Below are positions 8,888 through 25,022 of a stretch of 64,000 nucleotides of DNA, piece after piece. Source of the DNA: Emticicia agri (lineage in GTDB: Bacteria > Bacteroidota > Bacteroidia > Cytophagales > Spirosomataceae); the NCBI RefSeq assembly GCF_004168285.1, contig NZ_SEWF01000005.1:124001-188000 (forward strand). Direction: 5' to 3'. The notes under the pieces were generated by a model. The model made no database searches and was not told where the DNA came from. It saw only the letters and a program-made list of their open reading frames with translations. The position numbers were made by a program, and so were the translations under genes. How positions within the stretch are numbered: position 1 is the stretch's first letter; each line of letters opens with the position of its first letter.

Positions 8888-10015
8888 ATGCCGGAAAACA
8901 AAAAAATAAGAATTCTACAAACAATCAGACAAGGGAAAATAGGCGGTGGTGAAACCCATGTTCTTGATTTGGTAAGTACGCTGGACCAAAACAAATACGA
9001 ATCAGTTGTGCTTTCTTTTACTGAAGGTCCAATGGTTGATAAAATGAAAGCTATGGGTGTAAAAACCTATATGATTTATACCGAAAAACCCTTTGATATA
9101 TCTGTATGGGATAAAGTCAAAACAATTCTGATAGAAGAGAAAATAGATATAGTGCATGCCCACGGCACAAGAGCCAATTCTAATACCTATTCTTCTGCTA
9201 AAAAACTGGGCATTCCTTTACTATATACCGTTCATGGTTGGTCTTTTCACAACGACCAGAATTTTCTGGTTAAAACTCTCAGAACTTACAGTGAAAAGTT
9301 TTTAGTGAAAAACGCCACAAAAACCATTTGCGTTTCTAAGAGCAACTATGAAGATGGTGCCAAAAGATTCAGCATGAAAAATGCCACCGTCATTACCAAT
9401 GGGATTAATCTGGCAAAATTTGACCTCAATAAATCGTTTAAAAATGTAAGAAAAGAGTTTAACATTAAAGAAAATGAAGTTTTAGTGGGCTTTATTGCAC
9501 GTATGACATCCCAGAAAGACCCTTTTACCTTGCTTAAAGCCATAGCAAAGATTCCTGCCGACAGCCTGATAAAATTCCTGTTGGTTGGCGATGGCGATAG
9601 TAAAGAAGAAGTTTTGAAAATGGCCGAAGATTTAGGCATTAATTCAAGGGTTATTTTTGAGAGCTTCAGAGAAGATATACCGGATATACTTCATGCTATT
9701 GATATTTTTTGTCTGCCATCATTATGGGAAGGCTTACCCATTGCTTTATTAGAAGCTATGGCTATGGCAAAAGCTGTAGTAGCCACTGCTATTGATGGCA
9801 CAAAAGAAGTAATTGTACATGAGAAAAACGGTTTATTAGTACAACCTTCCAACCCCGATGAATTGGCCAATGCCCTGATACGTTTAGCCAATGATAAAGC
9901 TTTACGGGAGCAACTGAGGAAAGAAGCCCGTATGACTGTTGAAAAGAACTATAATGTAGCACGTATGACACGGGAAGTTGAAAAGATTTACGACGAATTA
10001 CACCAACCACATTAA
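8888..10015 (+). CDS. Glycosyltransferase family 4
   Basis: 375 residues of GT-B architecture. The N-terminal domain begins ILQTIRQGKIGGGETHVLDL, with the glycine-rich acceptor-side loop; the central HAHGTRAN, VHGWSF and CVSKSNYEDG motifs are typical. The C-terminal donor-binding domain has the E-x7-E signature in SLWEGLPIALLEAMA. It should transfer an activated sugar to the growing lipid-linked EPS repeat unit at the inner face of the membrane; the sugar is not predictable. It is the first gene of the rightward arm of the EPS locus and is separated by 280 bases from the response-regulator gene, so it may be transcribed separately. Confidence 0.88.
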   Translation: MPENKKIRILQTIRQGKIGGGETHVLDLVSTLDQNKYESVVLSFTEGPMVDKMKAMGVKTYMIYTEKPFDISVWDKVKTILIEEKIDIVHAHGTRANSNTYSSAKKLGIPLLYTVHGWSFHNDQNFLVKTLRTYSEKFLVKNATKTICVSKSNYEDGAKRFSMKNATVITNGINLAKFDLNKSFKNVRKEFNIKENEVLVGFIARMTSQKDPFTLLKAIAKIPADSLIKFLLVGDGDSKEEVLKMAEDLGINSRVIFESFREDIPDILHAIDIFCLPSLWEGLPIALLEAMAMAKAVVATAIDGTKEVIVHEKNGLLVQPSNPDELANALIRLANDKALREQLRKEARMTVEKNYNVARMTREVEKIYDELHQPH

Positions 10016-10179
10016 CCATTCACGCTATCGATAAAAATTTATCTGCTACCTCAAATCTTAACATTCAGGCAATTATAAAAACCAGATTTATATGTATTTT
10101 GGCAAAATAATTGCTATATAACTTATTGACTGAAAGGTTAATAAAAAACTGTAATCATAGCAAAGAATATTTCTGTTAA

Positions 10180-10219
10180 CACTATTGCAACATTCAGACA
10201 CAGTAATCTACCAATAGTG
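10180..10219. repeat. Short inverted repeat upstream of the response regulator
   Basis: CACTATTG (10180-10187) and CAATAGTG (10212-10219) are perfect complements separated by 24 bases in the 280-base gap before the response-regulator gene. The rest of the gap is AT-rich with no gene. It may be a hairpin or a protein-binding dyad. Confidence 0.35.
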
Positions 10220-10295
10220 CTTTCTCAATTGTTAAATAGGGTTAAATACAGAATATTACCAATGCTTTTCTAAATTTTCTCAAAACTTAATAACG

Positions 10296-10700
10296 ATGAA
10301 CAAAAAATTAAAACTTCTGATAATTGATGATGAGGCAAGTATTAGAAAAGTTTTAGAGCATTTCCTTAATAAAGAGTTTGAAGTAACAGCCAAGAACGAT
10401 GGTATGGAAGGTATGAGCTGGCTTGAGGCCGGAAACGATACCGACTTTATTATTGCTGACCTGAATATGCCGAATCTGAACGGTAAAGAATTTACGAAGG
10501 TAATAAGAGCCAGTAATCTGTATGCAGATTTACCAATCATTATTCTTTCAGGGACTGACGAGAGTAAGGAACGGATTGAGTGTCTGAATATCGGAGCTGA
10601 CGACTTTATGCTGAAACCTTTCAATCCAATGGAAGTACATGCTAAAATCAAAGCGATTTTACGACGCGTAAAACCAAAATCTATAGTTGATTCATATTAA
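10296..10700 (+). CDS. Single-domain response regulator (CheY-like)
   Basis: 134 residues made of one receiver domain with no output domain. All phosphorylation residues are present: acidic pair D11-D12, phospho-acceptor D55 (IIADLNMP), S85 (LSGTD) and K107 (MLKPF). Such proteins work by binding a partner or relaying phosphate. The next gene, 15 bases downstream and surely in the same operon, begins with a receiver-like domain that has lost its acceptor Asp. The pair therefore suggests phosphorylation-dependent control of EPS initiation. A kinase and Hpt proteins that could feed it lie at 25.0-29.0 kb. Confidence 0.9.
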   Translation: MNKKLKLLIIDDEASIRKVLEHFLNKEFEVTAKNDGMEGMSWLEAGNDTDFIIADLNMPNLNGKEFTKVIRASNLYADLPIIILSGTDESKERIECLNIGADDFMLKPFNPMEVHAKIKAILRRVKPKSIVDSY

Positions 10701-10715
10701 CCTCATCATTCTTAT

Positions 10716-11912
10716 ATGAATAATACTGTACCAAATACTACGACACTTACAGAAGCAGAAAAACTTCCGATTAAGATAATTTTAGTTGAAAGAGATGACA
10801 AAGCAGTAGTGGATTTTCTGAAGAGATTCGGAGAGAAAATTCATGTAAAAGTGATGAACAGCGCTGAAAACTGTCTTGAATACCTGAAAAATACTTATCC
10901 GCCCGATGCCGTTGTCATTGGCAGAAGTAGCGGTGGCTTAAAATTCTTAGAAACCATTCGGGGACAAGCCTGGACAAGGACACTACCGGTAATTATTACA
11001 AGCGACCACATTACACATGGATTATTGAAAGAAATCCAAGAAAAAGGTGGTGACGACATCTATCCGAGTGATTTTAGTAGCGGAGACTTAATTACCCGTC
11101 TCGACTATTTCGTTAAGCGTCGTCATTACAAAGCGATGCAGCAAACCAAAGCCAGTATTTTAGATGTGAAAATTCCTTTATGGAAGAGATTTATAGATGT
11201 AACCACAACCGGATTAGCACTATTGTTGTTATCACCGCTTTTAATCATCGTAGCTATTTTAATCAAACTTGACTCTAAAGGTCCGGTTATTTATTTATCG
11301 AAACGTGTAGGTGCCGGATACAAGATTTTCAGCATTTATAAATTCCGTACCATGCGAACTGATGCCGATAAGCTGATTAAAAACATGGGTTCGCTGAATA
11401 TGTACACCAAAAATACAGAAACCAAACAAACAATCGGGCTCTGCGAAACCTGTGCCGGTATAGGTACCTGCCAACAGCAATTATATCTGGACGGTGAAAT
11501 GGTTTGTGAAAAAATGTACTTAACTGAGAAGAAAGAAAAAGTGGCTTTCATGAAATTTCAGAACGACCCGCGTATTACGAGATTAGGTAAATTTTTGCGC
11601 AATAGTAGTATAGATGAATTACCTCAGCTGTTCAATATTTTTTTAGGAGATATGTCTTTGGTTGGCAATCGTCCTTTGCCCTTATATGAGGCAGAAAAGC
11701 TGACAACTGATGAATACATAGAGCGTTTTGCAGGCCCCGGAGGCTTAACCGGACTATGGCAGGTAACCAAACGAGGCAAAGGTAAAAAAGACATGACCGA
11801 AGAAGAAAGAATTCAGTTAGATATTGAGTATGCAAGAAACTTCTCCTTCAAATATGATATGAAAATTTTCTTTATGACATTCCCTGCCTTGTTACAGTCT
11901 GAGAATGTTTAA
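10716..11912 (+). CDS. Pseudo-receiver domain fused to an initiating sugar-phosphate transferase
   Basis: 398 residues. Residues about 19-135 look like a receiver domain but the acceptor position is Gly69 (VVIGRSSGG), so it should not be phosphorylated. A membrane hairpin (about 163-185) precedes the bacterial sugar transferase catalytic domain: KRVGAG...YKFRTM (196-213), DPRITRLGKFLRNSSIDELPQ (from 284), GDMSLVGNRP and GLTGLWQ. It transfers a sugar phosphate from a nucleotide sugar to undecaprenyl phosphate, starting the EPS repeat unit at the membrane. Between FRTM and DPRITR there is an approximately 70-residue linker with C243, C246, C252 and C264, which could bind zinc or an iron-sulfur cluster. 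The usual WcaJ-type N-terminal membrane domain is replaced by the pseudo-receiver. Confidence 0.88.
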   Translation: MNNTVPNTTTLTEAEKLPIKIILVERDDKAVVDFLKRFGEKIHVKVMNSAENCLEYLKNTYPPDAVVIGRSSGGLKFLETIRGQAWTRTLPVIITSDHITHGLLKEIQEKGGDDIYPSDFSSGDLITRLDYFVKRRHYKAMQQTKASILDVKIPLWKRFIDVTTTGLALLLLSPLLIIVAILIKLDSKGPVIYLSKRVGAGYKIFSIYKFRTMRTDADKLIKNMGSLNMYTKNTETKQTIGLCETCAGIGTCQQQLYLDGEMVCEKMYLTEKKEKVAFMKFQNDPRITRLGKFLRNSSIDELPQLFNIFLGDMSLVGNRPLPLYEAEKLTTDEYIERFAGPGGLTGLWQVTKRGKGKKDMTEEERIQLDIEYARNFSFKYDMKIFFMTFPALLQSENV

Positions 11913-11983
11913 GGTTGTTTCTCATCACTTTTGAGCCTTTAACTTTCCTGAGTATAAAGCTTACCAATTACGTTTAGTCTTTT

Positions 11984-12901
11984 ATGTCAAGCAAAGCACC
12001 TAAAGTTTCAATTATTACAGTCAATTTCAATGGTACTGCTGTAACTGCCGATTTACTTCGTTCTTTGGAGAAAATCACCTATCCCTCTATTGAGGTAATT
12101 GTGGTTGATAATAGTAATAAAGAACCGGGACACCAGCTACCCATTGATTTTCCCTGGATTAAATATATTGAAACCGGAGCTAATTTAGGCTTTGCTGGTG
12201 GCAATAATCTTGGCATGGAAGCCGCCACAGGCGACTACTTTTTTTTATTGAATAATGATACAGAAGTTGACCCGGGATTCTTGGAGCCATTGGTGCAGCG
12301 TATGCAAAGCGATAGAAATATCGGTATAGTTTGTCCCAAACTACTCTATTTCGATGAACCTGACACTATTCAGTTTGCAGGTTTCTTGCCTATCAACCCG
12401 GTTACAGGCAGAGGTTTTTCAATTGGTCATTTAGAAAAAGATAAAGGACAACACGAAGTAGCCCGGCCTACCTCAAGGGCACATGGCGCAGCCATGATGT
12501 ATTCGAGAGAAGCCTTCGAAAAAGTAGGCATGATGGCCGAACTTTTCTTTCTGTATTATGAAGAAATGGACTATTGTGAAAGATTCAAGCGGGCAGGTTA
12601 TACCATCTGGTATGAACCTAAAAGCAGGGTCTGGCATAAAGAATCGATGAGTACCGGAAAAGGCTCTACTTTAAAAACATATTATTACAGCCGAAACAGG
12701 TTGCTTTATTTACGCCGCAATACCTTTGGCTTCCAGAAATTCCTGATGTTTATTTATTACTACCTGATAGCTGTGCCTAAAAATATGATAGGATATTTGT
12801 TTAAACGCGACTGGCCACATCTCAAAGCTTTCTGGCAAGGTTTTATCTGGAATTTCAGTAACAGTACTAAAGATGTGCATGATAAAATGAGTTTATCATA
12901 A
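11984..12901 (+). CDS. Glycosyltransferase family 2, rhamnosyltransferase type
   Basis: 305 residues with the GT-A fold. VSIITVNFNG at the N-terminus and LNNDTEVDPG (DxD-like metal/nucleotide site) are clear, as are NLGFAGGNNLGM and the acceptor-region motif FLYYEEMDYCERFKRAGY, which mark the WbbL-like rhamnosyltransferase subgroup. The substrate is only inferred. Two hydrophobic stretches near the C-terminus (LMFIYYYLIAVP) may attach it to the membrane. It follows the initiating transferase by about 70 bases and probably adds an early sugar of the repeat unit. Confidence 0.88.
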   Translation: MSSKAPKVSIITVNFNGTAVTADLLRSLEKITYPSIEVIVVDNSNKEPGHQLPIDFPWIKYIETGANLGFAGGNNLGMEAATGDYFFLLNNDTEVDPGFLEPLVQRMQSDRNIGIVCPKLLYFDEPDTIQFAGFLPINPVTGRGFSIGHLEKDKGQHEVARPTSRAHGAAMMYSREAFEKVGMMAELFFLYYEEMDYCERFKRAGYTIWYEPKSRVWHKESMSTGKGSTLKTYYYSRNRLLYLRRNTFGFQKFLMFIYYYLIAVPKNMIGYLFKRDWPHLKAFWQGFIWNFSNSTKDVHDKMSLS

Positions 12902-12983
12902 AGTTTGAGTTCATAGCTATTCTTACCGGAACTTTTACGCACGTTTTGTTTTTGTATCTACACATATTTTATTTACTTATCAG

Positions 12984-14117
12984 ATGCGTATAGGAATAGA
13001 AGCCCAACGAATTTTCCGACAAAAAAAGCATGGCATGGACATTGTCATACTTGAAATATTACGCCAGCTACAGCAAATAAAAACCCCTCACGAATACTTA
13101 GTTTATGCGCAATCCTATAAAGATACAGACACGCTTCGCTCTACCGAAAATGTCAATATCAAACTAAGTGGACCCACTTTATACCCCATCTGGGAGCAAT
13201 ACATTTTACCAAAGGCAATCAGAAAAGATAAAATAGATTTGTTGCATTGTACCAGCAATACCGCTCCTATTACTCCCACTATTCCTTTAGTAGTTACCAT
13301 TCATGATGTTATTTATCTCGAAAAAAAGGTAAGCAATAATGGCGTTTTTTACCAGCGATTAGGTGGCATTTATCGAAGATGGAATGTACCTCAGATTGCT
13401 AAAAAAGCCTCTATGATTGTTACAGTAAGTAATTATGAGCGCAACCGGATGATTGAAAAACTAAACCTGCCTGAAGAAAAGGTACGAACGGTTTATAATG
13501 CCTGCAGCAACCATTTTGCCGACGAATATAGTACAGAAGAGTTGAACGATTTTAGTAAACGAATGAATCTGCCTGAACGGTTTGTGTTATTTTTAGGCAA
13601 TACAGACCCGAAAAAGAATTTACCGAATGTAATAAGGACATTAGCATTACTTTATGAAAGGAAACAATTAGACTTTACTTTAGTAATTACTGATTTTAAG
13701 GAAGAACACCTGTTACCTTTATTAAAAGAACAAAACAACGAACATCTGCTGAAACATATTCTGCTTATTGGTTATGTGGTTAACCGGGAATTGCCTAAGC
13801 TCTATAAACTGGCGCAATTATTTTTGTATCCGTCTCTGAGAGAAAGTTTCGGGATTCCGATACTGGAAGCCATGCAGTGTGGTACACCAGTAATTACCAG
13901 TAATACCTCAGCTATGCCCGAAATAGCCGGAGCAGGCGCAGTATTGATAGACCCCACACAAATAGAAGATATTGCCGAAAAAATAGTAAGACTGTTAAAC
14001 GATGCTGATATGAGAGCAAAAGTAATAGCTTATGGTCTCGAAAGAGTCAAGCTATTTTCATGGAAACAGACAACTGAACAAATGGTTGGTATTTATAATG
14101 AGGTTTTAGGAGTTTAA
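12984..14117 (+). CDS. Glycosyltransferase family 4, mannosyltransferase-like
   Basis: 377 residues, GT-B fold. The N-terminus IGIEAQRIFRQKKHGMDI, the middle VVTIHDVIYLE and TVSNYERNRMIEKL, FLGNTDPKKNL, and the donor signature SLRESFGIPILEAMQCGTPV (E-x7-E) place it in GT4, close to capsular mannosyltransferases. It acts in the cytoplasm on the lipid-linked repeat unit. It ends the rightward arm of the EPS locus, 7 bases from the end of the convergent GT14 gene, so transcripts from both arms meet here. Confidence 0.88.
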   Translation: MRIGIEAQRIFRQKKHGMDIVILEILRQLQQIKTPHEYLVYAQSYKDTDTLRSTENVNIKLSGPTLYPIWEQYILPKAIRKDKIDLLHCTSNTAPITPTIPLVVTIHDVIYLEKKVSNNGVFYQRLGGIYRRWNVPQIAKKASMIVTVSNYERNRMIEKLNLPEEKVRTVYNACSNHFADEYSTEELNDFSKRMNLPERFVLFLGNTDPKKNLPNVIRTLALLYERKQLDFTLVITDFKEEHLLPLLKEQNNEHLLKHILLIGYVVNRELPKLYKLAQLFLYPSLRESFGIPILEAMQCGTPVITSNTSAMPEIAGAGAVLIDPTQIEDIAEKIVRLLNDADMRAKVIAYGLERVKLFSWKQTTEQMVGIYNEVLGV

Positions 14118-14124
14118 CCGATAG

Positions 14125-14979
14125 TCAGTGCAACTCCTTGTATTTAACTTTATCCAATTCGTCTAATAATTCATCAGAAAGTTGTGGACTGAATTTTCTG
14201 GCAAATATCTTTCCTGAATTTAGTAACACCTGAAAATCCTGCATTGTAAAAGTTTTTGGACTCGCCTTTCCTTCCGACCAGTCAATATACCTCAGATTAT
14301 CGTTTACAATATCTTCTCTGTAAGAAGAATTATACAGAATTGTCTGGAATATAATTTCATCTGCCCCCCAGGTCAATTCAAAGAATCGCTTAATCTGCGG
14401 ATTTTTCTGTAAGTATTCAACAATATAACTGACATGATTCAAGCTCATGGTAAACCACTGAGAACGCCCGACCGGAACTAACCCATTAGGCATCTTGCGG
14501 CGTGGAGTCAGCAAGTTCACCGCCTTTTCAAAGAAATATCTCCCTCTAAAATGGAAGTCCGCAAAATGATATTTTCTTATTCTTGGTAATGCTTCCTGCC
14601 ATTCAGTTTCTATGAGCAGAGCATCCATAAAAGCTTTTCCGGGCTGATGCGCTAAAAAATCATGAATAAATTCTGCACTCTTCAGCGGGTAATCCTGGCC
14701 ACTCAACAGATTTACATAGTCATATGGCTCATGTGAACCCAGAATTTCATTGAAGCTATTTACTGTTGCCTGCACAATACTATAAGCCCCCCAATAGACT
14801 TTTATACGTTTCTGAATGAAAAAAACATGATTACTTGCTAAAGGAAGTAGTGGCTCTATATCGGTCTTTAAGTCAACATGAATATAAAAATCTGCGTCAG
14901 GATGCGCTAAACTTTCTATCAATCTTTTTAATTGACCTGAATTATTCGCATGGGTTAATATTAAATGGGCTATTTTCAT
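14125..14979 (-). CDS. GT14-type beta-1,6-N-acetylglucosaminyltransferase-like enzyme
   Basis: 284 residues. KIAHLILTHANNSGQLKRLI, FYIHVDLKTD, VYWGAYSIVQATVN, YVNLLSGQDYPLKS and GRSQWFTMSLNHVSYI are characteristic of the core-2/I-branching enzyme family. In bacteria these members are thought to add branch sugars to surface polysaccharides. The gene is last in the long leftward operon (16.3 kb to 14.1 kb), ten bases after the flippase gene. A branching role in the EPS is inferred; the donor and acceptor are unknown. Confidence 0.85.
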   Translation of the reverse strand: MKIAHLILTHANNSGQLKRLIESLAHPDADFYIHVDLKTDIEPLLPLASNHVFFIQKRIKVYWGAYSIVQATVNSFNEILGSHEPYDYVNLLSGQDYPLKSAEFIHDFLAHQPGKAFMDALLIETEWQEALPRIRKYHFADFHFRGRYFFEKAVNLLTPRRKMPNGLVPVGRSQWFTMSLNHVSYIVEYLQKNPQIKRFFELTWGADEIIFQTILYNSSYREDIVNDNLRYIDWSEGKASPKTFTMQDFQVLLNSGKIFARKFSPQLSDELLDELDKVKYKELH

Positions 14980-14988
14980 AAGTAATTG

Positions 14989-16341
14989 TTAAGCAGTCTT
15001 ATTTTTATAGAAAAACTGACTGTATAATTGTTTGATTTCATTAAACCCTGTTGTAAAAAAACCCAATAGCGTAAAGTCCAGATACCTTTTCAACCAGATA
15101 TATCCAAAAATAATACCTGCCGAAAAAGTAAAGAAAGTAGCGATAGCCACACCAATAATGTCATTAAAAAGATAAAGACCTAAAAAATCAAAAGCGATAT
15201 TGGTCGATAACATGATTAATACTTTATAAAAATTGATTCTGGGCTGATGAATAATATCCAGCGTAACACCCATGAATCTATCAAGAGGAAAAAACATGGC
15301 AAAAGACATAAAAATGCGATAAACCGTAACTGCCTGCGTATCTACATACTTACCTCCGCCTAAAATACCAATGGCTAAATCTGCCAGTACTAAGGCTATC
15401 AGACTTATGGGTATCAGGCATATGGTAAGCATGCCCCCATATTTCTGCATAATATTTACAACCTCTTTTTTGTTATTTTTATTAAACGCTTCTGACATAG
15501 AAGGCATACCTGTTGCCAAAAAACTACGCAGAGGTATTTCTATAATTTCCATTAATCGCATCGGAATATTATACATGGCAACTGCAGCAGGTCCTGCTGT
15601 ACCTAATACAATCATAATAATGAAAGTATCTGAGCTACGGAGCAGGTTAGCACTGATGGTTGTTCCGACACTGTACTTTCCGAAATGAAACAGTTCACTG
15701 ATTGATTCTTTAGTACGTTTCTTGAATGTATCTAAATGCGTCCAGCCTTTCAGTAAACTGAAAATACTTACCACCAATACACAGGCGGCATTAATTATCA
15801 ATATCTTTGGCAGTGATAATTCATGAAATATGATCATCGCTAAAACAGCGAGAATAAACAATCCCTGATTGATGACTCTCAAAATCAGTAGTTTATCAAA
15901 TCTTTGTTCAGCCTGTAAAACCCACATGGCAATATTTGATGGTAAACTGCACAGAAAAGTAATGCCAAACCATTGAATTGTAATAACTGTACCTGTACTA
16001 TCGGTAAAATTTAAAAAAGGAACAGCCAATAGATTCAGTACTACCATAACCCCTGTAATAACAATACCCAGATACCATACCGAGCCTAATACCGCTTCGG
16101 CTTTGGCTTTTTCGGCACCTGTATAAAATTTTATCAATGCTACCTGCAAACAGCCACTTCTGAATGTATCTAACAATACAAATACAGACTGAAAAAAGAA
16201 CCAGTATCCGAGGTCGTCTGATGGCATGAATCTGAATAAAATACCGGCCAGCACCATTCCTAAAACAGCCATTGCGCCATTCCCAAACAGCGACAAAAAA
16301 TGTCTGTTACGCAGTTTTGATATAATACCCTTTAGATTCAT
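14989..16341 (-). CDS. Oligosaccharide flippase, Wzx/MOP superfamily
   Basis: 450 residues with about 12-14 hydrophobic membrane segments spread over the whole chain, the N-terminal FGNGAMAVLGMVLAGILFRFMP and a long central FGKYSVGTTISANLLRSSDTFIIMIVLG-type region broken by short loops. These are features of polysaccharide flippases that move undecaprenyl-linked repeat units across the inner membrane. It is the only flippase in the locus and pairs logically with the Wzy-like protein at 18952. It lies 8 bases after the preceding glycosyltransferase gene. Specificity cannot be told. Confidence 0.88.
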   Translation of the reverse strand: MNLKGIISKLRNRHFLSLFGNGAMAVLGMVLAGILFRFMPSDDLGYWFFFQSVFVLLDTFRSGCLQVALIKFYTGAEKAKAEAVLGSVWYLGIVITGVMVVLNLLAVPFLNFTDSTGTVITIQWFGITFLCSLPSNIAMWVLQAEQRFDKLLILRVINQGLFILAVLAMIIFHELSLPKILIINAACVLVVSIFSLLKGWTHLDTFKKRTKESISELFHFGKYSVGTTISANLLRSSDTFIIMIVLGTAGPAAVAMYNIPMRLMEIIEIPLRSFLATGMPSMSEAFNKNNKKEVVNIMQKYGGMLTICLIPISLIALVLADLAIGILGGGKYVDTQAVTVYRIFMSFAMFFPLDRFMGVTLDIIHQPRINFYKVLIMLSTNIAFDFLGLYLFNDIIGVAIATFFTFSAGIIFGYIWLKRYLDFTLLGFFTTGFNEIKQLYSQFFYKNKTA

Positions 16342-16349
16342 GCGAATGA

Positions 16350-17591
16350 TTACAGCGATGAAATGCTTTTAAGATGAGACTGGTCTTTTTCTGTTAATAA
16401 CTGGTCTTGTACTGCAAAGATTTTCTCAACGCAGGCTTCCCAGGTGTGGCTTTTGGCACAGTTGATAGCCGCTAACTTTTGCTCCATACTTTGTGGTTGC
16501 AGGGCTTTTTCTATGGCTTTCAGGTAACCTTCTAAGCCGACGGCTAACTCTACGTGTGGCAGAAACATTTTCATTGCCAGGGTTTCTGTAGCTACTGTTG
16601 GCTTACCCATTGATAAATACTCATCAATTTTCCGGGGATAATTGCCAATCGTTAACCCATTAATTACCTGCGGATTCATACATACATCCATATAGTGCAT
16701 ATAAGCAGGCAATTCGCTTGTTTTTTTTGCGCCTAAGAAATGTACGTTCGGAATCTCATGCAATCGGCTTTTTTCAAATACAGGGTCCTCTGGCCCTATC
16801 AATACAATCTGCCAGTCTTTTTTGGCCTCGGCGATTTGCTCTAATAATTGAATATCCAATCGCTCATGTGTCAGAAAACCTACGTAACCTATTCTTGGGT
16901 GCTTGATAGGTGCTAAGTCAGCAGGTTCTGTTTTCTCCGAAAAAGCATCATAGATGTCAGTTTCACACCCCTGCCCTATTTCCAGACTTCTTAAATTATA
17001 TTTTAAGCCATATTCGGTAAGATAAGCCGAATTACCAAAAATAGCATCAGCTTCTTTGATGGTAACAGGCTCTATACGTGGCCCGTGAAATCTAAAATAG
17101 GCCTGCTCAACCAGATTATCTCTGATATAGTAAAAACTTAATCTTGGATTAAAAAACTCTTTCACAAAAGGCCCTGCAAACATCTGGCTATCATTAAAAA
17201 CAATACAGTTTTCAGGTTGCCAGTTGAGTTTTTTTACCGCCTTTTTCAGGCTTTCAAAAAATCCTTTTGCATTTCTTCTGTTCAGCATATCATACAGCTT
17301 AAAATTTTTCAACCAGTTAATAGAGCTACTGATATTCTGTGGGGTATGTAACCATAAGTTATCGGCAAGTTTTTCGGTATTTTCACCTATGCCTAAAGCT
17401 AATTTCAATCGTTTACGTCCATAAGGCGTGCTGGCCCTGCTAATAAGCGATTTAACATTAGTATCAGGGTTTACATATATTACAGGCATGGTCTTACTGA
17501 TTTCCACGGCCAGATTACGGGCATTACTACCGAGGTTCAGTTCCCATTCCTGCTGTGCAATCAGAATAAATGCATCAACTTTTTTTGACAT
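16350..17591 (-). CDS. Glycosyltransferase, GT-B fold (GT1/GT4 type)
   Basis: 413 residues. The N-terminus (FILIAQQEWELNLGSNARNLA) and middle (RIGYVGFLTHERLDIQLLEQ, IVLIGPEDPVF, FLGAKKTSELPAYM) fit GT-B enzymes, and the donor domain has GLTIGNYPRKIDEYLSMGKP where the usual E-x7-E is shifted (PRKIDEYLSMGKPTVATE). The protein resembles glycosyltransferases in capsule loci whose sugars are not defined. It follows a tiny open frame that overlaps its start codon and precedes the flippase by 8 bases. Confidence 0.82.
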   Translation of the reverse strand: MSKKVDAFILIAQQEWELNLGSNARNLAVEISKTMPVIYVNPDTNVKSLISRASTPYGRKRLKLALGIGENTEKLADNLWLHTPQNISSSINWLKNFKLYDMLNRRNAKGFFESLKKAVKKLNWQPENCIVFNDSQMFAGPFVKEFFNPRLSFYYIRDNLVEQAYFRFHGPRIEPVTIKEADAIFGNSAYLTEYGLKYNLRSLEIGQGCETDIYDAFSEKTEPADLAPIKHPRIGYVGFLTHERLDIQLLEQIAEAKKDWQIVLIGPEDPVFEKSRLHEIPNVHFLGAKKTSELPAYMHYMDVCMNPQVINGLTIGNYPRKIDEYLSMGKPTVATETLAMKMFLPHVELAVGLEGYLKAIEKALQPQSMEQKLAAINCAKSHTWEACVEKIFAVQDQLLTEKDQSHLKSISSL

Positions 17592-17676
17592 AACGTTTAC
17601 TTTTAGTTTTCAGACCTTTCAAAAAACCCCAGACTATACCTATTATACCCACTACTGCAATAATATCCCAAGGCAT
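17575..17676 (-). CDS. Possible 33-residue single-pass membrane peptide
   Basis: An ATG at 17676 opens a 33-codon frame that begins MPWDIIAVVGIIGIVWGF, a short hydrophobic helix, and continues with a Lys/Arg-rich tail (LKGLKTKSKRYVKK). The stop overlaps the start of the next glycosyltransferase gene by 17 bases in another frame, consistent with translational coupling. It fills the 104-base gap between two operon genes. The composition is that of a bacterial small membrane protein (helix plus basic tail). No conserved family is recognised, and it could be chance. Confidence 0.35.
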   Translation of the reverse strand: MPWDIIAVVGIIGIVWGFLKGLKTKSKRYVKKS

Positions 17677-17695
17677 AATTACTCTAATTTAAGTG

Positions 17696-18871
17696 TTAAG
17701 ACTCACCATGTGGTGTATGAATAAACTGCTTGCGGGCTTTACCAATATGCAACATGGCTTTCAGCATTGAGAATAATGCGCTTGGTATCTGCAAAAATGC
17801 CATGAGCAGCTTTTTGTTATACCACTTAGCTGGAATGCCCATCAATAATGCTAAAACCAAAGCAAAAAACATTCCAATTGTTACATACAAAAACTCCTTA
17901 AAAAACAAGATTGTTAGTACTAACCAAAGGCATACTATGGCTACCAACATCACTCTTGGCAACAGATATGTCTGGAAAACTTTATCGAAAAAAGCCACAT
18001 TTCCTCTGAAAAGCTGAACCCAACCCTCAACAAAATATTTTTCAAAAAACTCAATTTGCATGGCTATCCAGCGGCTTCTTTGTTTGCTAAAAACATCAGT
18101 CTTAGCTACTTTTTCATCATAGACATAGCGCCCGTCCAGAAAAGCTATCTTTTTCCCTTGTCTGATAATTCTGTATTCCATTTCCTTATCTTCACCTGAT
18201 GTATCGCCGATATTATGCAGTAACGAAACAAAGAAATCCCATTGAAAAGCCATACCGCTACCAATCAGTGCCGAAGGCAAACCTACGGCCACGTGGCCTC
18301 TACGGAAAATATGATTATTAATTTCTTCAGTACAGGCATCTAACAAAGCAAATGGCGTTTTAAAATCCTTAGCAGTTCTGTGGCCTTGCACTACCTGATA
18401 CCCTTTTTCAAAAGCATTGTTTACCGCATGCAGAAAACCTTTAGACATATGATTATCAGCATCTAAAATCACTACGATGTCCACAGGTTCATGGGCTGTA
18501 GCGGCAACAGCTTTCTCTAAAGCCTTTCCTTTCGTACTTTTCTCAAAGCTCACTTCTATCACTTTAATCGGAAGTGTTTTAAGCGTAGCCAAGGTAGCTT
18601 CGCTGAAAGAGTCAGCTATAATGACGACCTCGTATTTATCTTTGGGATAATCTTGCAGAACAGCATCTTTTGCGGTATTGATAATTACGGCATCTTCTTT
18701 ATAACCCGGAATAAAAATCCTGATTTTTCTGAGTGTTTTTGCCTCTGCAAAAGTTTCTTTCCGGGCTATTTTACCTGCAATAGAATAAAAAAGCAGATAA
18801 GCTACCTGAATAAACAGATAGACAAGAATAATGTAGAGAAAAATGTTCAGTATAAGGTATAGTACACTCAT
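17696..18871 (-). CDS. Membrane glycosyltransferase family 2 with QxxRW motif
   Basis: 391 residues. One N-terminal membrane helix (about 4-28), a GT-A catalytic domain with FIPGYKEDAVI, VVIADSFSE and VVILDADNHM (DxD), GEDKEMEYRI and KQRSRW (the QxxRW signature of cellulose/hyaluronan-synthase-type enzymes), then three or four C-terminal helices. Enzymes of this shape add sugars at the membrane and some are processive. In this Wzx/Wzy locus it is more likely a repeat-unit transferase, but a synthase-type role cannot be excluded. About 80 bases separate it from the Wzy-like gene upstream. Confidence 0.85.
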   Translation of the reverse strand: MSVLYLILNIFLYIILVYLFIQVAYLLFYSIAGKIARKETFAEAKTLRKIRIFIPGYKEDAVIINTAKDAVLQDYPKDKYEVVIIADSFSEATLATLKTLPIKVIEVSFEKSTKGKALEKAVAATAHEPVDIVVILDADNHMSKGFLHAVNNAFEKGYQVVQGHRTAKDFKTPFALLDACTEEINNHIFRRGHVAVGLPSALIGSGMAFQWDFFVSLLHNIGDTSGEDKEMEYRIIRQGKKIAFLDGRYVYDEKVAKTDVFSKQRSRWIAMQIEFFEKYFVEGWVQLFRGNVAFFDKVFQTYLLPRVMLVAIVCLWLVLTILFFKEFLYVTIGMFFALVLALLMGIPAKWYNKKLLMAFLQIPSALFSMLKAMLHIGKARKQFIHTPHGES

Positions 18872-18951
18872 CGTTTGATTAGGTTTTGCCCAAAGGTGAT
18901 TACATATTTGAAATAGAACTGATTCATGAAAAACACTTATTAGATGCTTAA

Positions 18952-20424
18952 TTAAGCCATTACTTCCTGACCTTCTTCAATTTTTACCTCTTTAGGTGCA
19001 GGCGTGTCCCATCTTGGACTTAACCATATAAAGGCAAAACTTACATAAACAACAGCTTCTGACGGCATGGCATTGAGTACCTCGTTGCCATAGCTACAAA
19101 GCAGAATACCGGCTGCTCCCGAACATAGCGATACCAGTTGATTTTTAAGCACCGGGTCACGTGTTTTCCAGATGATTCCGGCACTTTTACCCATAATATA
19201 CATCATCATTCCAAACCATATCAGAAAACCTACAATGCCGTACATACCCCATATTTTTACATAAAGGCTGTCGGGTGGTATAGTAGAAATATATTTATCC
19301 TTATTATAGATAGTACCCCATGTACCCATTGTACCTACTCCTGCACCAAAAGGCTTGGTGCGTATATATTCAGCCAATATTTTCTGGTTGATAAATCGTA
19401 CCTGTAAAGAAGCATCTTTAGGGTCTAATGAGGTACGCAAACGTCTTACTTCAGCATTCTGGTTTCCTATGGTAGTATATTTCAGAACTCCAAGGGCTCC
19501 TCCACCTACTATTGCGCCTAAGAGCAGAATTTTTATCTGCTTACTTAGTATCAGAAAGGTAAAGCCCCCTCCTACCAGGCCAAACAAAGCACCTCTTGTG
19601 CCGGATATAAGCATCCCATACATAATTACCAACCCTGCAATCATATACACTATTTTCTTTTTCTTTGTATAAGGCCCAACTGCCAGAATGATACACATAA
19701 TGGCAATCTGTGCCTGAGATGCACCAAATTGTCCGGCATCAGAGTAATAGGAGAAAACCCTGAGTTTGCCGAACAAAACGTGTGTTTTCTTAGGTCCTTC
19801 TTCCAGCCACCTGTTTTCGGCAGCATCAGGCCCTAATTTCATTTGTTTTACCCCATATATGGCGCCTATAAAAGAAAGCACGATAATAATGGTCAGAAAA
19901 GTGTTAATATCTTTCTTTTTATAAAAGAGTAAAATAGCCAGTGGAATGGTTAATATCCAGTATAATGTTGCCGAACGCATTTCATATACCCAACCTAAAA
20001 CACTGGGTCTTTCGGGATTACCTAATTGCAGTACAGTAATCACAAACCATACTACTGCTGTCCAGAACAAATCGTTGTTGATATATCTGAACTTAAACTT
20101 ATCGCTCCTGAAAAACAATACGGCAAACAGCGTAAGAAACAGCAAAGCATCTGTACCTAAACCAGCCTGCAACCCCGGCACGTGCTTACCAATAGTTGGC
20201 ATCAGAAAACAGTACACAATGTAGGTAAACATGCCTATACGAGGTTTCAGAAACACTAATGTTACAAAGCCTACAATAAATGGTAATACCAAAAGAATTA
20301 TGCCGATAGCAACCCCCATCTTGGCTATTATCCAACCAAAGGCAACGGCAAAAAGAACAATGGGTATCAGCCAGATATTCTTTATGACATTACGGTTAGT
20401 TGTATAAAAAACATTGCTTTCCAT
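18952..20424 (-). CDS. O-antigen ligase/polymerase family protein (Wzy-like)
   Basis: 490 residues with about eleven membrane segments and one large periplasmic loop (roughly 300-390, containing RRLRTSLDPKDASLQVRF and RTKPFGAGVGTMGTWG). This loop carries the conserved Arg and Pro-Gly-containing motif typical of the Wzy_C/WaaL family. In this setting the likely role is polymerisation of flipped repeat units in the periplasm. It is 12 bases downstream of the chain-length protein gene, which is the usual partner of a Wzy polymerase. A ligase function is possible but less likely without lipid-A core genes nearby. Confidence 0.85.
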   Translation of the reverse strand: MESNVFYTTNRNVIKNIWLIPIVLFAVAFGWIIAKMGVAIGIILLVLPFIVGFVTLVFLKPRIGMFTYIVYCFLMPTIGKHVPGLQAGLGTDALLFLTLFAVLFFRSDKFKFRYINNDLFWTAVVWFVITVLQLGNPERPSVLGWVYEMRSATLYWILTIPLAILLFYKKKDINTFLTIIIVLSFIGAIYGVKQMKLGPDAAENRWLEEGPKKTHVLFGKLRVFSYYSDAGQFGASQAQIAIMCIILAVGPYTKKKKIVYMIAGLVIMYGMLISGTRGALFGLVGGGFTFLILSKQIKILLLGAIVGGGALGVLKYTTIGNQNAEVRRLRTSLDPKDASLQVRFINQKILAEYIRTKPFGAGVGTMGTWGTIYNKDKYISTIPPDSLYVKIWGMYGIVGFLIWFGMMMYIMGKSAGIIWKTRDPVLKNQLVSLCSGAAGILLCSYGNEVLNAMPSEAVVYVSFAFIWLSPRWDTPAPKEVKIEEGQEVMA

Positions 20425-20436
20425 GCGTACTACTGC

Positions 20437-22644
20437 TTATCCTCTATAGACAGATTTTCTGTTACCAAATTCAAATTTTACCACTTTCTTTATAAACGAC
20501 CTTATGGCATTACGTTTCTTAGGCACTTCACCAATGTATTCTTCGGCAAAATCAGTTTCTACCCCATTCAGAATAAACATTGGTTGACTGCCGGTAGTCT
20601 GGGTAAAGATTGAAACCATTTGTTTATCTTTTGTATCCCAGATACGATTGGCTCTACAAACAAGAATAGAATGACTGAGTGGTGGAAAAAGGCCGGGCTT
20701 AATTACCATTTTTTCTAAGGCAGGAAACTCTACCAATACAAAATCTTTTTCTTTCTTTCTTACCAACTCCCCCCCTTGCATTTTCAGTAGTCCGGTATCC
20801 TGATGCTGTTTGATAATCTCCTGTTCATTGGCCCATTCTATCTGGTGAGCCGCTAAACTAAGAGGCATAGAAATACCTAATTGCCGATACTCGGTATTTG
20901 ATAATAATAGTTGTTTTTCGACATGGTAATTAAGGTCTAATAACTGTCTCTCTAATATATCAATAATTGTGCTTTTACCCTCTCCTTTTTGTGTACTGAT
21001 AAAACCTAAATAAATGGTATCCTGACGGCCATCTATTTTAGCAAGCACATGTTGCAAGAGTCTCAGGTCGGCTTGTCTTAAAAAATCAGGATTATCGTTC
21101 AGCAGCGGATAGATTCCTAACAATGGTAAATTAACCATTTTTTTAGCCCTTGATGGCTCTAATAATGTTTTATTAATAAAGGCCCTGCCAATAATCACAG
21201 CCATTACCAATACAAAACCCACCATAAAACCTACTATAACCAATATAATACGTTTAGACGGATTAGGTTTTAATGGAAGAAACGGTGGGTCAACCACATC
21301 TAATCTTGATGTAAGCTCGGTATTTTGTTGCGAGAGCTTTGCCTGATTAAGGTCGTGCAATAGTTGCAGGTACTCCTGTTCCGAGACATTGATTTGCCTT
21401 TCAATCTTTTTGAGAATGGCACCCAATGGTGCAAATTTCCTATATTCTTCAGTAAACTCTTTTTTGCGTTTATCCATAACGGCCAGTTTTGCTTTGCTTT
21501 GTTCAAAAGCAAGCGTTGTTCTCAGCCATTCGTCCAGCACATTCTTGGTCGGGATTCCATTAGGGGTATTTGTCTGCTGATTCAGGTTATTGAGCGATTT
21601 CTTGATATTAGCCTCATAAGTAGCAGCCAGGTTTTTAAGGCTATCTAATTCTCTTTTATTAGAACCATCTTTATTAACAATTTCGCTATTGGCAATTTTG
21701 TTATAGATATCCGACAGTTTCTGACGCTCGTCAATAATTTCACTTCCATAAATCGACTGATATACACGGTTTTTGATGCTTTCATTTACTTTATCCAAAG
21801 ATTTACTGGAGGCCAGCTCTTCCATTTCCAAATCATGATTCATGGCATACAAATCTTCTCTTTCCCCTGCTACAGCTTTGGTTTGTTCGTAGTAGTTAAT
21901 GATGTCGTTATTTTTATTAAAATCCAGGAAGAGTTTTTCTACCGAATCAAGCTTGATAAAAGCTTTTCTGGTTTGTGTTTCAAAATAATCTACTACCGAG
22001 GTAGTCTGTCCACCTTTCACCGACTTGTATTTTTCCATAAAAATACTTTCCAGCAACTCCAACGTCCGCTTGCAGATAAAAGGGTCATTGGTTTCGTAGG
22101 AGATTTTCACCAAATCACTGGAACTGATACGATTCGCTTCAATTTTCTTGAGTGCATCTAAAGAATAGAAAGGCTCTTTCGAATTCAGAAGTTCATATAT
22201 CAGATTATCGTCGCTACTCTCCATAAATTTAGTGATAGCTTCACGTGTTTCAGATAGTGTTGGCTTTACTATTATTTGTCTAATACTATCCGGCACCTGC
22301 CTGCTTAGTTCGTCGTATGCCAACCAGGTCATTACCTGTGGGTCATGTTTTTTTAGGGATAAATGCTCTGCCAGTAATGAAATGGCAACATCTTGTTTAG
22401 TTTCCCGTGATTGAATAAGCGTAAGGAGGTTATCAAATGCATTGCTGGTAGAAAAGAAGTCAGCCTTAATTTCGCCACTAAGGCTATATCCTGAGGCAAT
22501 ACCCGTGTAAATAGTTGATTCTGAAGCATATACTTTTTTCTCCTTACGTGTAAAATAAAAAATCGCAACAGCTAATACGATAGGTACCAATATCAGCCAT
22601 TTAAGATTTTTATAAACCAGATTAAGGAAATGCAAGAAACTCAT
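20437..22644 (-). CDS. Wzz/Wzc-like polysaccharide co-polymerase with degenerate kinase domain
   Basis: 735 residues. Two membrane helices (about 14-31 and 480-505, RIILVIVGFMVGFVLVMAV) flank a long, coiled-coil-rich periplasmic region, the layout of chain-length regulators. The cytoplasmic tail has a P-loop (STQKGEGKSTI, about 547-557) as in bacterial tyrosine kinases. However, the expected Walker A' Asp and the Walker B Asp are not visible (VLVEFPAL in place of hhhDxPP), and there is no C-terminal tyrosine cluster. The protein probably sets EPS chain length without autophosphorylating. Its ATG overlaps the TGA of the TolC-like gene (ATGA, 22641-22644), so the two are translationally coupled. 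Confidence 0.85.
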   Translation of the reverse strand: MSFLHFLNLVYKNLKWLILVPIVLAVAIFYFTRKEKKVYASESTIYTGIASGYSLSGEIKADFFSTSNAFDNLLTLIQSRETKQDVAISLLAEHLSLKKHDPQVMTWLAYDELSRQVPDSIRQIIVKPTLSETREAITKFMESSDDNLIYELLNSKEPFYSLDALKKIEANRISSSDLVKISYETNDPFICKRTLELLESIFMEKYKSVKGGQTTSVVDYFETQTRKAFIKLDSVEKLFLDFNKNNDIINYYEQTKAVAGEREDLYAMNHDLEMEELASSKSLDKVNESIKNRVYQSIYGSEIIDERQKLSDIYNKIANSEIVNKDGSNKRELDSLKNLAATYEANIKKSLNNLNQQTNTPNGIPTKNVLDEWLRTTLAFEQSKAKLAVMDKRKKEFTEEYRKFAPLGAILKKIERQINVSEQEYLQLLHDLNQAKLSQQNTELTSRLDVVDPPFLPLKPNPSKRIILVIVGFMVGFVLVMAVIIGRAFINKTLLEPSRAKKMVNLPLLGIYPLLNDNPDFLRQADLRLLQHVLAKIDGRQDTIYLGFISTQKGEGKSTIIDILERQLLDLNYHVEKQLLLSNTEYRQLGISMPLSLAAHQIEWANEQEIIKQHQDTGLLKMQGGELVRKKEKDFVLVEFPALEKMVIKPGLFPPLSHSILVCRANRIWDTKDKQMVSIFTQTTGSQPMFILNGVETDFAEEYIGEVPKKRNAIRSFIKKVVKFEFGNRKSVYRG

Positions 22645-23402
22645 TTTATTCTCTTTAATAATGACGCTAAAGTTGTTCCTGTGAATGTCTCTAATTGCAT
22701 AAGATTAGTCTGAAACAGGTTTACTGTCTGCTCATATTCTATCTTAGCTTTATTATTCATATCAAGTACTCTCGAAAGTTGCTCAACAGTCAGTTGTCCT
22801 TGCAAAAACTCTTTCTCAGCCAGGTCATAATTCAATTGTGACGATTGCTTATTACTGGTAGTGATAGCCAGTAATTTCTGAGAGAGTTTCAGTTCCTGAT
22901 ACATCCGTATTACCTCTTGCTTTACCGCCATCGTAGCCGATTCTCTTTCATGACCAAATATTTCCATCTGCATCTGAGCCGTTTTTACCAGATGTTTACG
23001 GTTGATAACTGTGGTAATAGGTAAAGATATACCTACACCTAAATTATAAAAGCCTGTTTGGGTAGTAGTAAGTCTGTTAAAATTGGTCGATGCCGTAGCA
23101 TCCGCTACCGCAGCATAATTGGTACCGTAGGCATAACTGGCCTGCAAACCAAGCGCACTATAAATAGAATTCTTATTTATTTTCACGTTGGCCTGAGCCA
23201 TTTGAATACTCTTATCGAATCTTTTTATATCTCCCGAATTTTTTAAGGCAGCATCGATCAGAAAAGGCAGGAGTTCATCGGTGGCAAATGCTTTTGCCAG
23301 AGTGGCGTCAACAGAGGTAACCTGAGCATGTACTTCTGTATTAATAGAAATAAGGATAAATACAGCAATAAACACTGTAGAAAGTCTTCTAAGGCACGTC
23401 AT
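22641..23402 (-). CDS. Short TolC-family outer-membrane protein
   Basis: 253 residues from the Met at 23402, chosen because it begins a good signal peptide (MTCLRRLSTVFIAVFILIS...EVHAQ); an upstream in-frame Met would put 28 hydrophilic residues before it. The mature chain is helical and coiled-coil-like with the TolC pattern (GVGISLPITT, LAEKEFLQGQLTVEQLSRVLDMNNKAKIEYEQ). It is about half the length of ordinary TolC proteins, so it holds roughly one of the two structural repeats. It is first in the EPS operon, coupled by ATGA overlap to the Wzz/Wzc-like gene. It may replace the missing Wza-type export channel. Confidence 0.8.
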   Translation of the reverse strand: MTCLRRLSTVFIAVFILISINTEVHAQVTSVDATLAKAFATDELLPFLIDAALKNSGDIKRFDKSIQMAQANVKINKNSIYSALGLQASYAYGTNYAAVADATASTNFNRLTTTQTGFYNLGVGISLPITTVINRKHLVKTAQMQMEIFGHERESATMAVKQEVIRMYQELKLSQKLLAITTSNKQSSQLNYDLAEKEFLQGQLTVEQLSRVLDMNNKAKIEYEQTVNLFQTNLMQLETFTGTTLASLLKRIK

Positions 23403-23660
23403 TTTTTTATCAACAAAGGTTTGTTGTCTTTCAATATAAGTTAAGCCTAAAGGCTTATTAGCAAGTTCCTCAAATATCATACCCAATCTTATTTTGGTAA
23501 GAAATACTTATCAAAAATCACTTTTCTTTTTTTTGAGTAACCCAATAGCAGAGTTCAAGAGGATAGCAGGAGTTCAGGAAAAGGAGGAAAATTTTGATTC
23601 AATTACAGCAATAATTATAAATTCTGTGAATTTATAATACAATTAACACTCTTTCTGAAT

Positions 23661-23696
23661 AAAAACAGCTACTAATGTTTTAGTAACTGTTTTTTT
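23661..23696. terminator. Bidirectional terminator between the family 2 glycosyltransferase and TolC-like genes
   Basis: AAAAACAGCTACTAA (from 23661) pairs with TTAGTAACTGTTTTTTT (to 23696) with one mismatch and a tight loop; long A and T runs lie outside the stem, so both strands end in T. It stands 20 bases after the stop of the leftward glycosyltransferase gene at 23717 and divides the locus into transcription units. The remaining DNA from 23403 to 23716 holds no gene; the TolC-operon promoter should be in it but no clear match was found. Confidence 0.75.
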
Positions 23697-23716
23697 CGAA
23701 AATTATTATATTTTTA

Positions 23717-24925
23717 TCATTGCGCACGTTTAACTTTCTCCCAGATACCGGAAGTAATTCCCTGGCGATAGCGGTTATAGCCTTTAATAGCACAATAGTT
23801 CATGAATGAAAAGTAAAATGGTACAAAAAGCAGTTTTATTCTGATTTTCTGATTTTCTAACCAATAGCCTACTATGGCTAATACATAAAACACAATCTGT
23901 GCAACCAGTAATGCTTTATAAAAAGTTACAGGCTCGTTCATATCTTCCATCAATACCAAAGCCAGATTCAATAAAAATATAATAGGCAGGCAAAACGGTG
24001 CTACTGCCCAACGCATGGCTCTATGCGATACGTATTGAAAAGATAACCAGCCATACTTAAATATATTCCATAAAAACCCAAGACGGGCAATAGACTGAAA
24101 TCCTCCTGTGGCAATACGGATTTTTCGTTTCATTTCGTCCTGAATAGAAAAAGATGGTCGCTCAATAGCATAGGCTTCCGGTTCATAGATTACCCGATAT
24201 CCGTTAGCGGCCACCCTTAGCGAAACCATAAAGTCGTCAAGCAAAGTATCTTTTTCAACCGAGCCATAAAGATTTGTTCTGACAGCAAATAATTCACCTG
24301 CTGCCCCAACTACCGAATAAAGCTTGGTATCTAATTTTTTCAGAAAAGACTCGTACTTCCAGTATAACCCCTCTCCTGCGCCTGCCGCAGCTTCACTATC
24401 ATCAACCTGAATACGTTTCTCTCCTGCTACTGCTCCTACGTTTTCATCTTTAAAATGGCGGACAATATTCTTGATAACTGCTTTATTCAGTGTGGTGTTA
24501 GCGTCGGTAAAAATAACAATCGGCGTATCAATTGTTTTAATTGCCATATTCATGGCTTCTATCTTTCCCTTACGTTCGTTGCCTCCAATGATTTTCAGGT
24601 TCGGATAAGTAGCCATCAAAGACTGTATATATTCGGTAGTACCATCATTTGAACCCTCTGTTACAAACAGAATATCTATTTTATCTGCCGGATAATCTAA
24701 GCCAAAAGAATTTTTCACTTTTGCTTCGATACAACTCATTTCGTTGTAGGCAGGAATCGCCAGCGTAACTTTAGGCTGAAAAGCAGGGTCATTCAATGTT
24801 GGGAAGGAGATTCCCAGTAGGGTTCTGATTTTAACAAATAGCCAGGCTACTATGCCATAGCCTATATAAGTGTAAAAAACCAGACCTATACAAACCCAGA
24901 AAAGAATTTCAATGATAGTTTTCAT
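23717..24925 (-). CDS. Membrane glycosyltransferase family 2
   Basis: 402 residues from the Met at 24925, preferred over an earlier Met because it directly begins the N-terminal membrane helix (MKTIIEILFWVCIGLVFYTYIGYG). The GT-A domain shows LAIPAYNEMSCIEAKV, FVTEGSNDGTTE, IFTDANTT (DxD-like), AGELFAVR, LDDFMVSLRV and the RKIRIATGGFQS segment, and two or three helices close the C-terminus. It resembles membrane glycosyltransferases that build EPS backbones. It is cut off from the rest of the EPS genes by a terminator and may be a monocistronic unit upstream of them. Confidence 0.85.
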   Translation of the reverse strand: MKTIIEILFWVCIGLVFYTYIGYGIVAWLFVKIRTLLGISFPTLNDPAFQPKVTLAIPAYNEMSCIEAKVKNSFGLDYPADKIDILFVTEGSNDGTTEYIQSLMATYPNLKIIGGNERKGKIEAMNMAIKTIDTPIVIFTDANTTLNKAVIKNIVRHFKDENVGAVAGEKRIQVDDSEAAAGAGEGLYWKYESFLKKLDTKLYSVVGAAGELFAVRTNLYGSVEKDTLLDDFMVSLRVAANGYRVIYEPEAYAIERPSFSIQDEMKRKIRIATGGFQSIARLGFLWNIFKYGWLSFQYVSHRAMRWAVAPFCLPIIFLLNLALVLMEDMNEPVTFYKALLVAQIVFYVLAIVGYWLENQKIRIKLLFVPFYFSFMNYCAIKGYNRYRQGITSGIWEKVKRAQ

Positions 24926-25022
24926 TATGAATCTAATAAGTAGCAGGAAAGTTCTATAATACAAAAACAACGATTGACCAGATAGGAACTTGCCTTACCG
25001 GAACAAATCATTATTTTTTTAA

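Follow-up and report, generated by a model that had tools for sequence, protein, structure and literature searches.

The present analysis concerns a 64,000-nucleotide stretch of the Emticicia agri genome (family Spirosomataceae; contig NZ_SEWF01000005.1, positions 124,001 to 188,000), referred to below as the window, and in particular a pair of adjacent genes encoding a small receiver protein and a phosphoglycosyl transferase (PGT) that is predicted to start an exopolysaccharide (EPS) pathway. The receiver (10296-10700) and the transferase (10716-11912) are both found on the forward strand, separated by 15 bp, and the following features were assigned to them:

10296 to 10700, forward strand: single-domain receiver (single-domain response regulator) of 134 amino acids without an output domain, recognised by Pfam Response_reg, with D11, D12, D55, S85 and K107 intact.
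10458 to 10460, forward strand: codon of D55, the phospho-acceptor predicted from sequence; of 176 aligned receiver genes, 158 have D here and 15 have E.
10716 to 11912, forward strand: fusion of a pseudo-receiver and a PGT, 398 amino acids.
10767 to 11153, forward strand: degenerate receiver (pseudo-receiver), about residues 18-146, assigned from its AlphaFold2 fold, Foldseek matches and lost active-site residues.
10920 to 10922, forward strand: codon of G69, the residue that occupies the acceptor site at the end of beta3, placed by sequence, alignment and model.
11055 to 11057, forward strand: codon of D114, equivalent to PhoB D101 and BfmR D103, kept in 85% of pseudo-receivers (E in a further 10%).
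11097 to 11099, forward strand: codon of R128, equivalent to PhoB R115 and BfmR R117, kept in 78% of pseudo-receivers (K in a further 12%).
11169 to 11909, forward strand: catalytic domain of a small monotopic PGT, assigned from Pfam Bac_transf, its catalytic positions and a match to PglC (TMt 0.83).
11442 to 11507, forward strand: four-cysteine insert within the PGT domain (C243, C246, C252 and C264; CxxC-x5-C-x11-C).

The same adjacent pair was found again at approximately 170 distinct loci across Bacteroidota, and is therefore more than a chance arrangement; the spacing between the two genes displays a median of 13 bp, and is no greater than 30 bp in 131 of 173 cases.

The separate receiver is matched by Pfam Response_reg across residues 8-119 (E 4e-25), and carries the acidic pair, the acceptor aspartate, the serine or threonine and the lysine that together define a single-domain response regulator, with no output domain. 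Among the 176 aligned receiver genes the lysine at position 107 is kept in every one and a serine or threonine at position 85 in 175, in addition to the 158 that retain D55. The original prediction, which described a complete single-domain receiver with D55 located 15 bases ahead of a transferase, was borne out in its reading frames, coordinates and residues.

The first 150 residues of the transferase match no Pfam family (Bac_transf, further downstream, is the only Pfam domain found), and are weakly recognised as a receiver by NCBIfam models (PleD, 9.5e-06; PhoB, 3.4e-05). An AlphaFold2 model, built with a 67-sequence alignment, nevertheless placed this region in a complete (beta-alpha)5 receiver fold at a pLDDT of 96-98, and Foldseek paired it with solved receivers (3t6k, TMt 0.84; CpxR, TMt 0.81). 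The earlier claim of a receiver-like domain with glycine at the acceptor position is thus upheld, with G69 located at the end of beta3. Pseudo-receivers have been defined as (beta-alpha)5 receiver folds that are missing residues needed for phosphotransfer (PMC12632262); here the acceptor, the acidic pair and the lysine have all been lost, so that the domain is a pseudo-receiver and more than an aspartate variant.

The remainder of the protein is a small monotopic PGT. Bac_transf spans residues 157-393 (E 9e-58), and all of the catalytic residues are present (D161-x12-P174, K209, R295, the D300-E301 dyad and R319) at positions that are invariant or nearly so among 67 members of the family. A single re-entrant membrane helix occupies residues 155-186, and the only hydrophobic segment in the protein lies at residues 159-194 (Kyte-Doolittle); the nearest solved fold to the catalytic domain, by Foldseek, is that of PglC (TMt 0.83). 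One re-entrant helix, a DX12P motif, a DE dyad and the lysine and arginine substrate residues correspond to published motif definitions for small PGTs (PMC12802240). The four-helix bundle and cytoplasmic domain of unknown function (DUF) that mark large monotopic PGTs (WbaP, WcaJ and EpsZ) are absent from the protein, which has a receiver-fold N-domain instead and scores below the cut-offs curated for the WcaJ, WbaP and EpsZ models. The original prediction that a WcaJ/WbaP membrane N-terminus had been replaced is corrected accordingly: small PGTs have no such N-terminus, and a more accurate description is that of a small monotopic PGT to which an N-domain has been added. The four-cysteine insert in its catalytic domain, possibly a metal site, is kept in 119 of 154 members with a pseudo-receiver versus 2 of 15 with an intact fused receiver.

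The relationship between the fused domain and the separate gene was established by gathering relatives of the PGT, with their flanks, from 60 named loci and from profile searches of 291 genomes order-wide and 395 genomes phylum-wide. Once duplicates, large PGTs and truncated genes had been set aside, 200 PGTs remained, and each was assigned a class from its N-domain (counted as intact if it had the acidic pair, Asp and Lys) and from whether a receiver gene directly preceded it on the same strand. Such a gene accompanies 154 of the 157 PGTs with a degenerate N-receiver, or 156 when two threshold misses are counted (in L157 a gap of 323 bp separates the receiver from the PGT, and in L208 the receiver lies approximately 640 bp upstream); L207 is the only PGT of this class without a receiver gene within 3.2 kb. 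Those with an intact N-receiver have none (0 of 15), and PGTs without an N-domain are divided between 19 that have a receiver gene upstream and nine, all small PGTs of the family, that have neither receiver gene nor N-domain. The corresponding Fisher's p value for this cis/trans pattern is 6e-19, a figure that ignores relatedness. Rare pairing had been set beforehand as a refutation of the original proposal, and the pairing proved instead to be common. In an examination of 117 loci, the receiver cluster occupied position -1 with 105 members, and no other gene family kept a fixed place in most of those loci. The pair occurs in many families of several orders, in neighbourhoods that are otherwise varied, and extends to gut Bacteroidales such as Bacteroides finegoldii and Parabacteroides distasonis; in gut Bacteroides and Parabacteroides its genes are annotated merely as 'response regulator' and 'sugar transferase'.

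Where only the intact fusion is present, the fused domain appears to take the place of the missing gene. In all five such genomes tested (G007, G004, G005, G273 and G191), none of which has a separate receiver gene beside the PGT, the window receiver found its strongest match genome-wide in the fused domain, at 78-101 bits versus 64-75 for the next best, and in these five the free and fused receivers look, by sequence comparison, like one gene in two arrangements. One genome that carries both kinds of PGT (G133) behaved as expected, its best match being the free receiver beside the degenerate-type PGT; a second (G217) does not fit, with its fused receiver scoring just 60 bits, beneath several kinases. 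Receiver genes and fused intact receivers split together from 27 background receivers with a support of 79, in a tree (123 columns, 122 rows, most forks unresolved) that separates background receivers and does not date the fusions.

Variant architectures were also encountered. The gene at L224:3995-6871 encodes a 958-residue PGT with approximately 600 extra N-terminal residues ahead of the pseudo-receiver, and has no receiver gene directly upstream. At L121 and L126 the fused domain carries Glu at the acceptor and keeps the Lys, in the presence of a separate receiver gene; these may be intermediates between the intact and degenerate forms.

The active site of the pseudo-receiver has drifted freely, and its best-conserved side chains (by weighted conservation, prolines and the start methionine aside) are D114 and R128. 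In BfmR the equivalent residues form an inter-protomer salt bridge, Arg117-Asp103', across the alpha4-beta5-alpha5 dimer interface (PMC4888885). Compared with the OmpR/PhoB-type interface (PhoB R91-E111, BfmR R117-D103), using a PhoB sequence checked against the PDB, the window receiver has R93, E113, D103 and K117, and the pseudo-receiver has D114, R128 and D124 but no equivalent of PhoB R91. Judged from these alignments, the kept D114 and R128 are such as would be expected of a surface on which a receiver docks.

The reading that we favour, at a probability of roughly three in four, is that the small receiver is a dedicated phospho-switch that acts in trans on the PGT that starts the EPS pathway. 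A phosphorelay, most likely fed by the nearby hybrid kinase through its HPt domain, would phosphorylate D55; the phosphorylated receiver would then dock on the PGT, in the Emticicia lineage largely through the N-terminal pseudo-receiver, a domain that would have lost phosphorylation and kept its alpha4-beta5-alpha5 docking surface; and docking would alter the state of the membrane-bound catalytic domain, switching on the transfer of sugar-1-phosphate to undecaprenyl phosphate. This reading is carried by the parts themselves and their folds, by the near-obligate pairing and the interchange with an intact fused receiver, and by the kept interface residues. An extension of the same reading, for which we consider the odds to be even, is a module spread across the phylum whose initiating PGT has its phospho-acceptor supplied either in cis, as an intact fused domain, or in trans, by a receiver that docks on a degenerate one.

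Several observations weigh against the favoured reading. The 19 loci that keep a receiver with a PGT leaving no room for a pseudo-receiver occupy several separate positions on the tree, so that docking cannot depend on the pseudo-receiver everywhere. The intact fused state has approximately four origins on the best PGT tree, with one on well supported branches, and the independent pairs run in the predicted direction in numbers too few for a phylogeny-corrected sign test to reach significance. Across 154 receiver/pseudo-receiver pairs (Neff ~80), covariation is barely above that of mis-paired controls, with top scores scattered over the fold, and D114 and R128 could instead form a salt bridge within a single domain. 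As the input, the leading candidate, a relay that runs from the kinase through HPt to the receiver, is proposed on the grounds of gene linkage. A search of the literature that took in few subscription journals found no biochemistry on this PGT family.

The constant element, given those 19 loci, is one receiver per PGT; the pseudo-receiver, common but not required, is an optional docking platform or adaptor and not the switch. The heterodimer switch of the original prediction is therefore retained in part: a phospho-switch in trans is supported by the missing receiver gene in relatives with an intact fusion and by the kept interface residues, but a heterodimer with the pseudo-receiver is not the whole mechanism. 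The same 19 loci also sustain a competing explanation that we regard as somewhat unlikely, in which the receiver acts directly on the catalytic domain, much as the fused intact one would (members with that fusion having no pseudo-receiver), and the degenerate domain is a decaying leftover or tether. Retention of that domain in 157 of the 200 members, with selective conservation of its interface Asp and Arg, would be needless in a dead tether.

The sign of a trans-acting switch might also be the opposite of that proposed, with the phosphorylated receiver inhibiting the PGT; sign cannot be read from sequence alone, and we consider inhibition distinctly unlikely. Fifteen receivers carry Glu at the acceptor with Ser and Lys kept, mostly within one Spirosoma-like clade (L107, L109-L113 and L146-L167). 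Glutamate at a receiver's acceptor is often a phospho-mimic and, if it mimics phospho-Asp here, the receivers of this clade are as if locked on, a hint that activity goes with the phosphorylated form. Phosphorylated EpsW is the only tested analogue known to us. That protein activates the PGT EpsZ in Myxococcus xanthus (mBio, November 2025, PMC12802240), which again argues against inhibition.

It is highly improbable, in our estimation, that the pseudo-receiver is instead a sensor of a ligand such as cyclic di-GMP, with the receiver an operon neighbour or acting on the kinase or a LytTR regulator. The precedent is REC1 of Caulobacter ShkA, which binds that nucleotide on its beta5-alpha5 surface (PMC7010744), a face that is conserved in the pseudo-receivers; a sensor leaves unexplained why the receiver gene is missing every time the fused receiver is intact, and why the fused domain is the receiver's nearest relative in genomes with the intact fusion. 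Ordinary operon conservation without functional coupling, its complementary pattern reflecting a few lineage effects (the tree shows no more than approximately four independent changes), is the least probable explanation, given that the pair stays adjacent in many families, several orders and varied neighbourhoods, and in gut Bacteroidales as well.

Of the published systems, EpsW-EpsZ is the closest precedent, and co-occurrence of a receiver with a PGT, of the EpsW-EpsZ type, was observed in the survey. EpsW-EpsZ places control after translation at the first committed step, as the Bacteroidota arrangement, a distinct variant, would also do. EpsZ is a large PGT with four transmembrane helices and a cytoplasmic DUF, whereas the Emticicia enzyme is a small PGT with a pseudo-receiver (141 bits against the NCBIfam EpsZ model, whose cut-off is 800); the Bacteroidota genes are adjacent, in an arrangement that alternates with an intact fused receiver; and the kinase of EpsW is the Dif chemosensory kinase DifE, in contrast to a candidate hybrid kinase with HPt in Emticicia. 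The authors of that study propose a wider principle and cite receiver domains on small PGTs; Bacteroidota are unmentioned in its text. Small monotopic PGTs with fused receiver domains come from O'Toole et al. 2021, as cited in PMC12802240; going by that citation, the intact-fusion proteins at L085, L242 and L159, with their N-terminal receivers, look like them, whereas in the Emticicia protein the receiver domain is degenerate and invisible to Pfam, and the phospho-acceptor resides in a separate gene. In Caulobacter PleD (receiver, pseudo-receiver, GGDEF), a phosphorylated receiver works through a pseudo-receiver on an enzyme (PMC12632262), and the Emticicia N-domain aligns weakly to PleD positions 155-280; PleD is a single polypeptide with diguanylate cyclase output, whereas the Emticicia receiver and pseudo-receiver are separate proteins with PGT output. 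The small PGT prototype, PglC of Campylobacter, shares the fold and residues of the catalytic domain but has neither a regulatory domain nor the four-cysteine insert.

The features below surround the pair, and correspond to a Wzx/Wzy-type EPS locus and to candidate regulators:

8888 to 24970: EPS locus around the pair, with glycosyltransferases, flippase, polymerase/ligase, Wzc/Wzz-like and TolC-like genes.
14989 to 16341: flippase.
18952 to 20424: polymerase/ligase.
20437 to 22644: Wzc/Wzz-like protein.
22641 to 23486: outer-membrane TolC-like protein.
25512 to 26201, reverse strand: LytTR-type response regulator (Pfam LytTR and Response_reg), overlapping the kinase gene.
26198 to 29038, reverse strand: candidate upstream hybrid histidine kinase of 946 amino acids, 3xPAS-HisKA-HATPase-REC-HPt (Pfam).

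The LytTR regulator is a possible second output of the same relay. In 9 of 12 genomes, Emticicia included, the nearest ortholog of the hybrid kinase is found within approximately 7-23 kb of the PGT, and three genomes that carry the fused form show such linkage as well; most of these genomes belong to one genus, so that inherited gene order contributes to the linkage. On a Hymenobacter plasmid (L281) a single stretch carries the hybrid kinase, LytTR regulator, an HPt protein, glycosyltransferases, receiver, PGT and TolC; a protein of the O-antigen ligase family lies there too, and the Wzc-like position is taken by a large hypothetical protein. A kinase directly beside the receiver was rejected as a conserved feature, kinase-like genes flanking it in 16 of 116 loci.

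How pseudo-receivers are switched on and off has been described as the central unanswered question about them, and phosphorylation-dependent heterodimers of receivers and pseudo-receivers have been raised merely as a possibility (PMC12632262). The pair described here, its spread across the phylum and its cis/trans interchange were not found in the literature, which is weak evidence since most subscription journals lay outside the search. If the phylum-wide extension is true, receiver/pseudo-receiver pairs that act on an enzyme would form a large family in nature, and pseudo-receivers of this class would be switched by a phosphorylated partner. The module supplies well over a hundred natural one-to-one pairs whose enzyme output is measurable and for which natural fusions and losses serve as controls. 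Across Bacteroidota, human gut species included, the enzyme that initiates exopolysaccharide synthesis is usually accompanied by a receiver predicted to be phosphorylatable, whether fused to it or encoded next door as a small protein beside a degenerate copy, and this suggests direct gating of the first step by a phosphate signal; direct phosphorylation control of the first surface-polysaccharide step, shown in one myxobacterium, may be general in this phylum, gut Bacteroides and Parabacteroides among its members. The receiver-PGT system may reach beyond Bacteroidota, to judge from plasmid pSR84 of Salinibacter ruber (Rhodothermota; L279), which carries a related PGT without an N-domain and, approximately 4 kb off, a divergently oriented receiver gene (KPFNP motif) together with a PAS protein.
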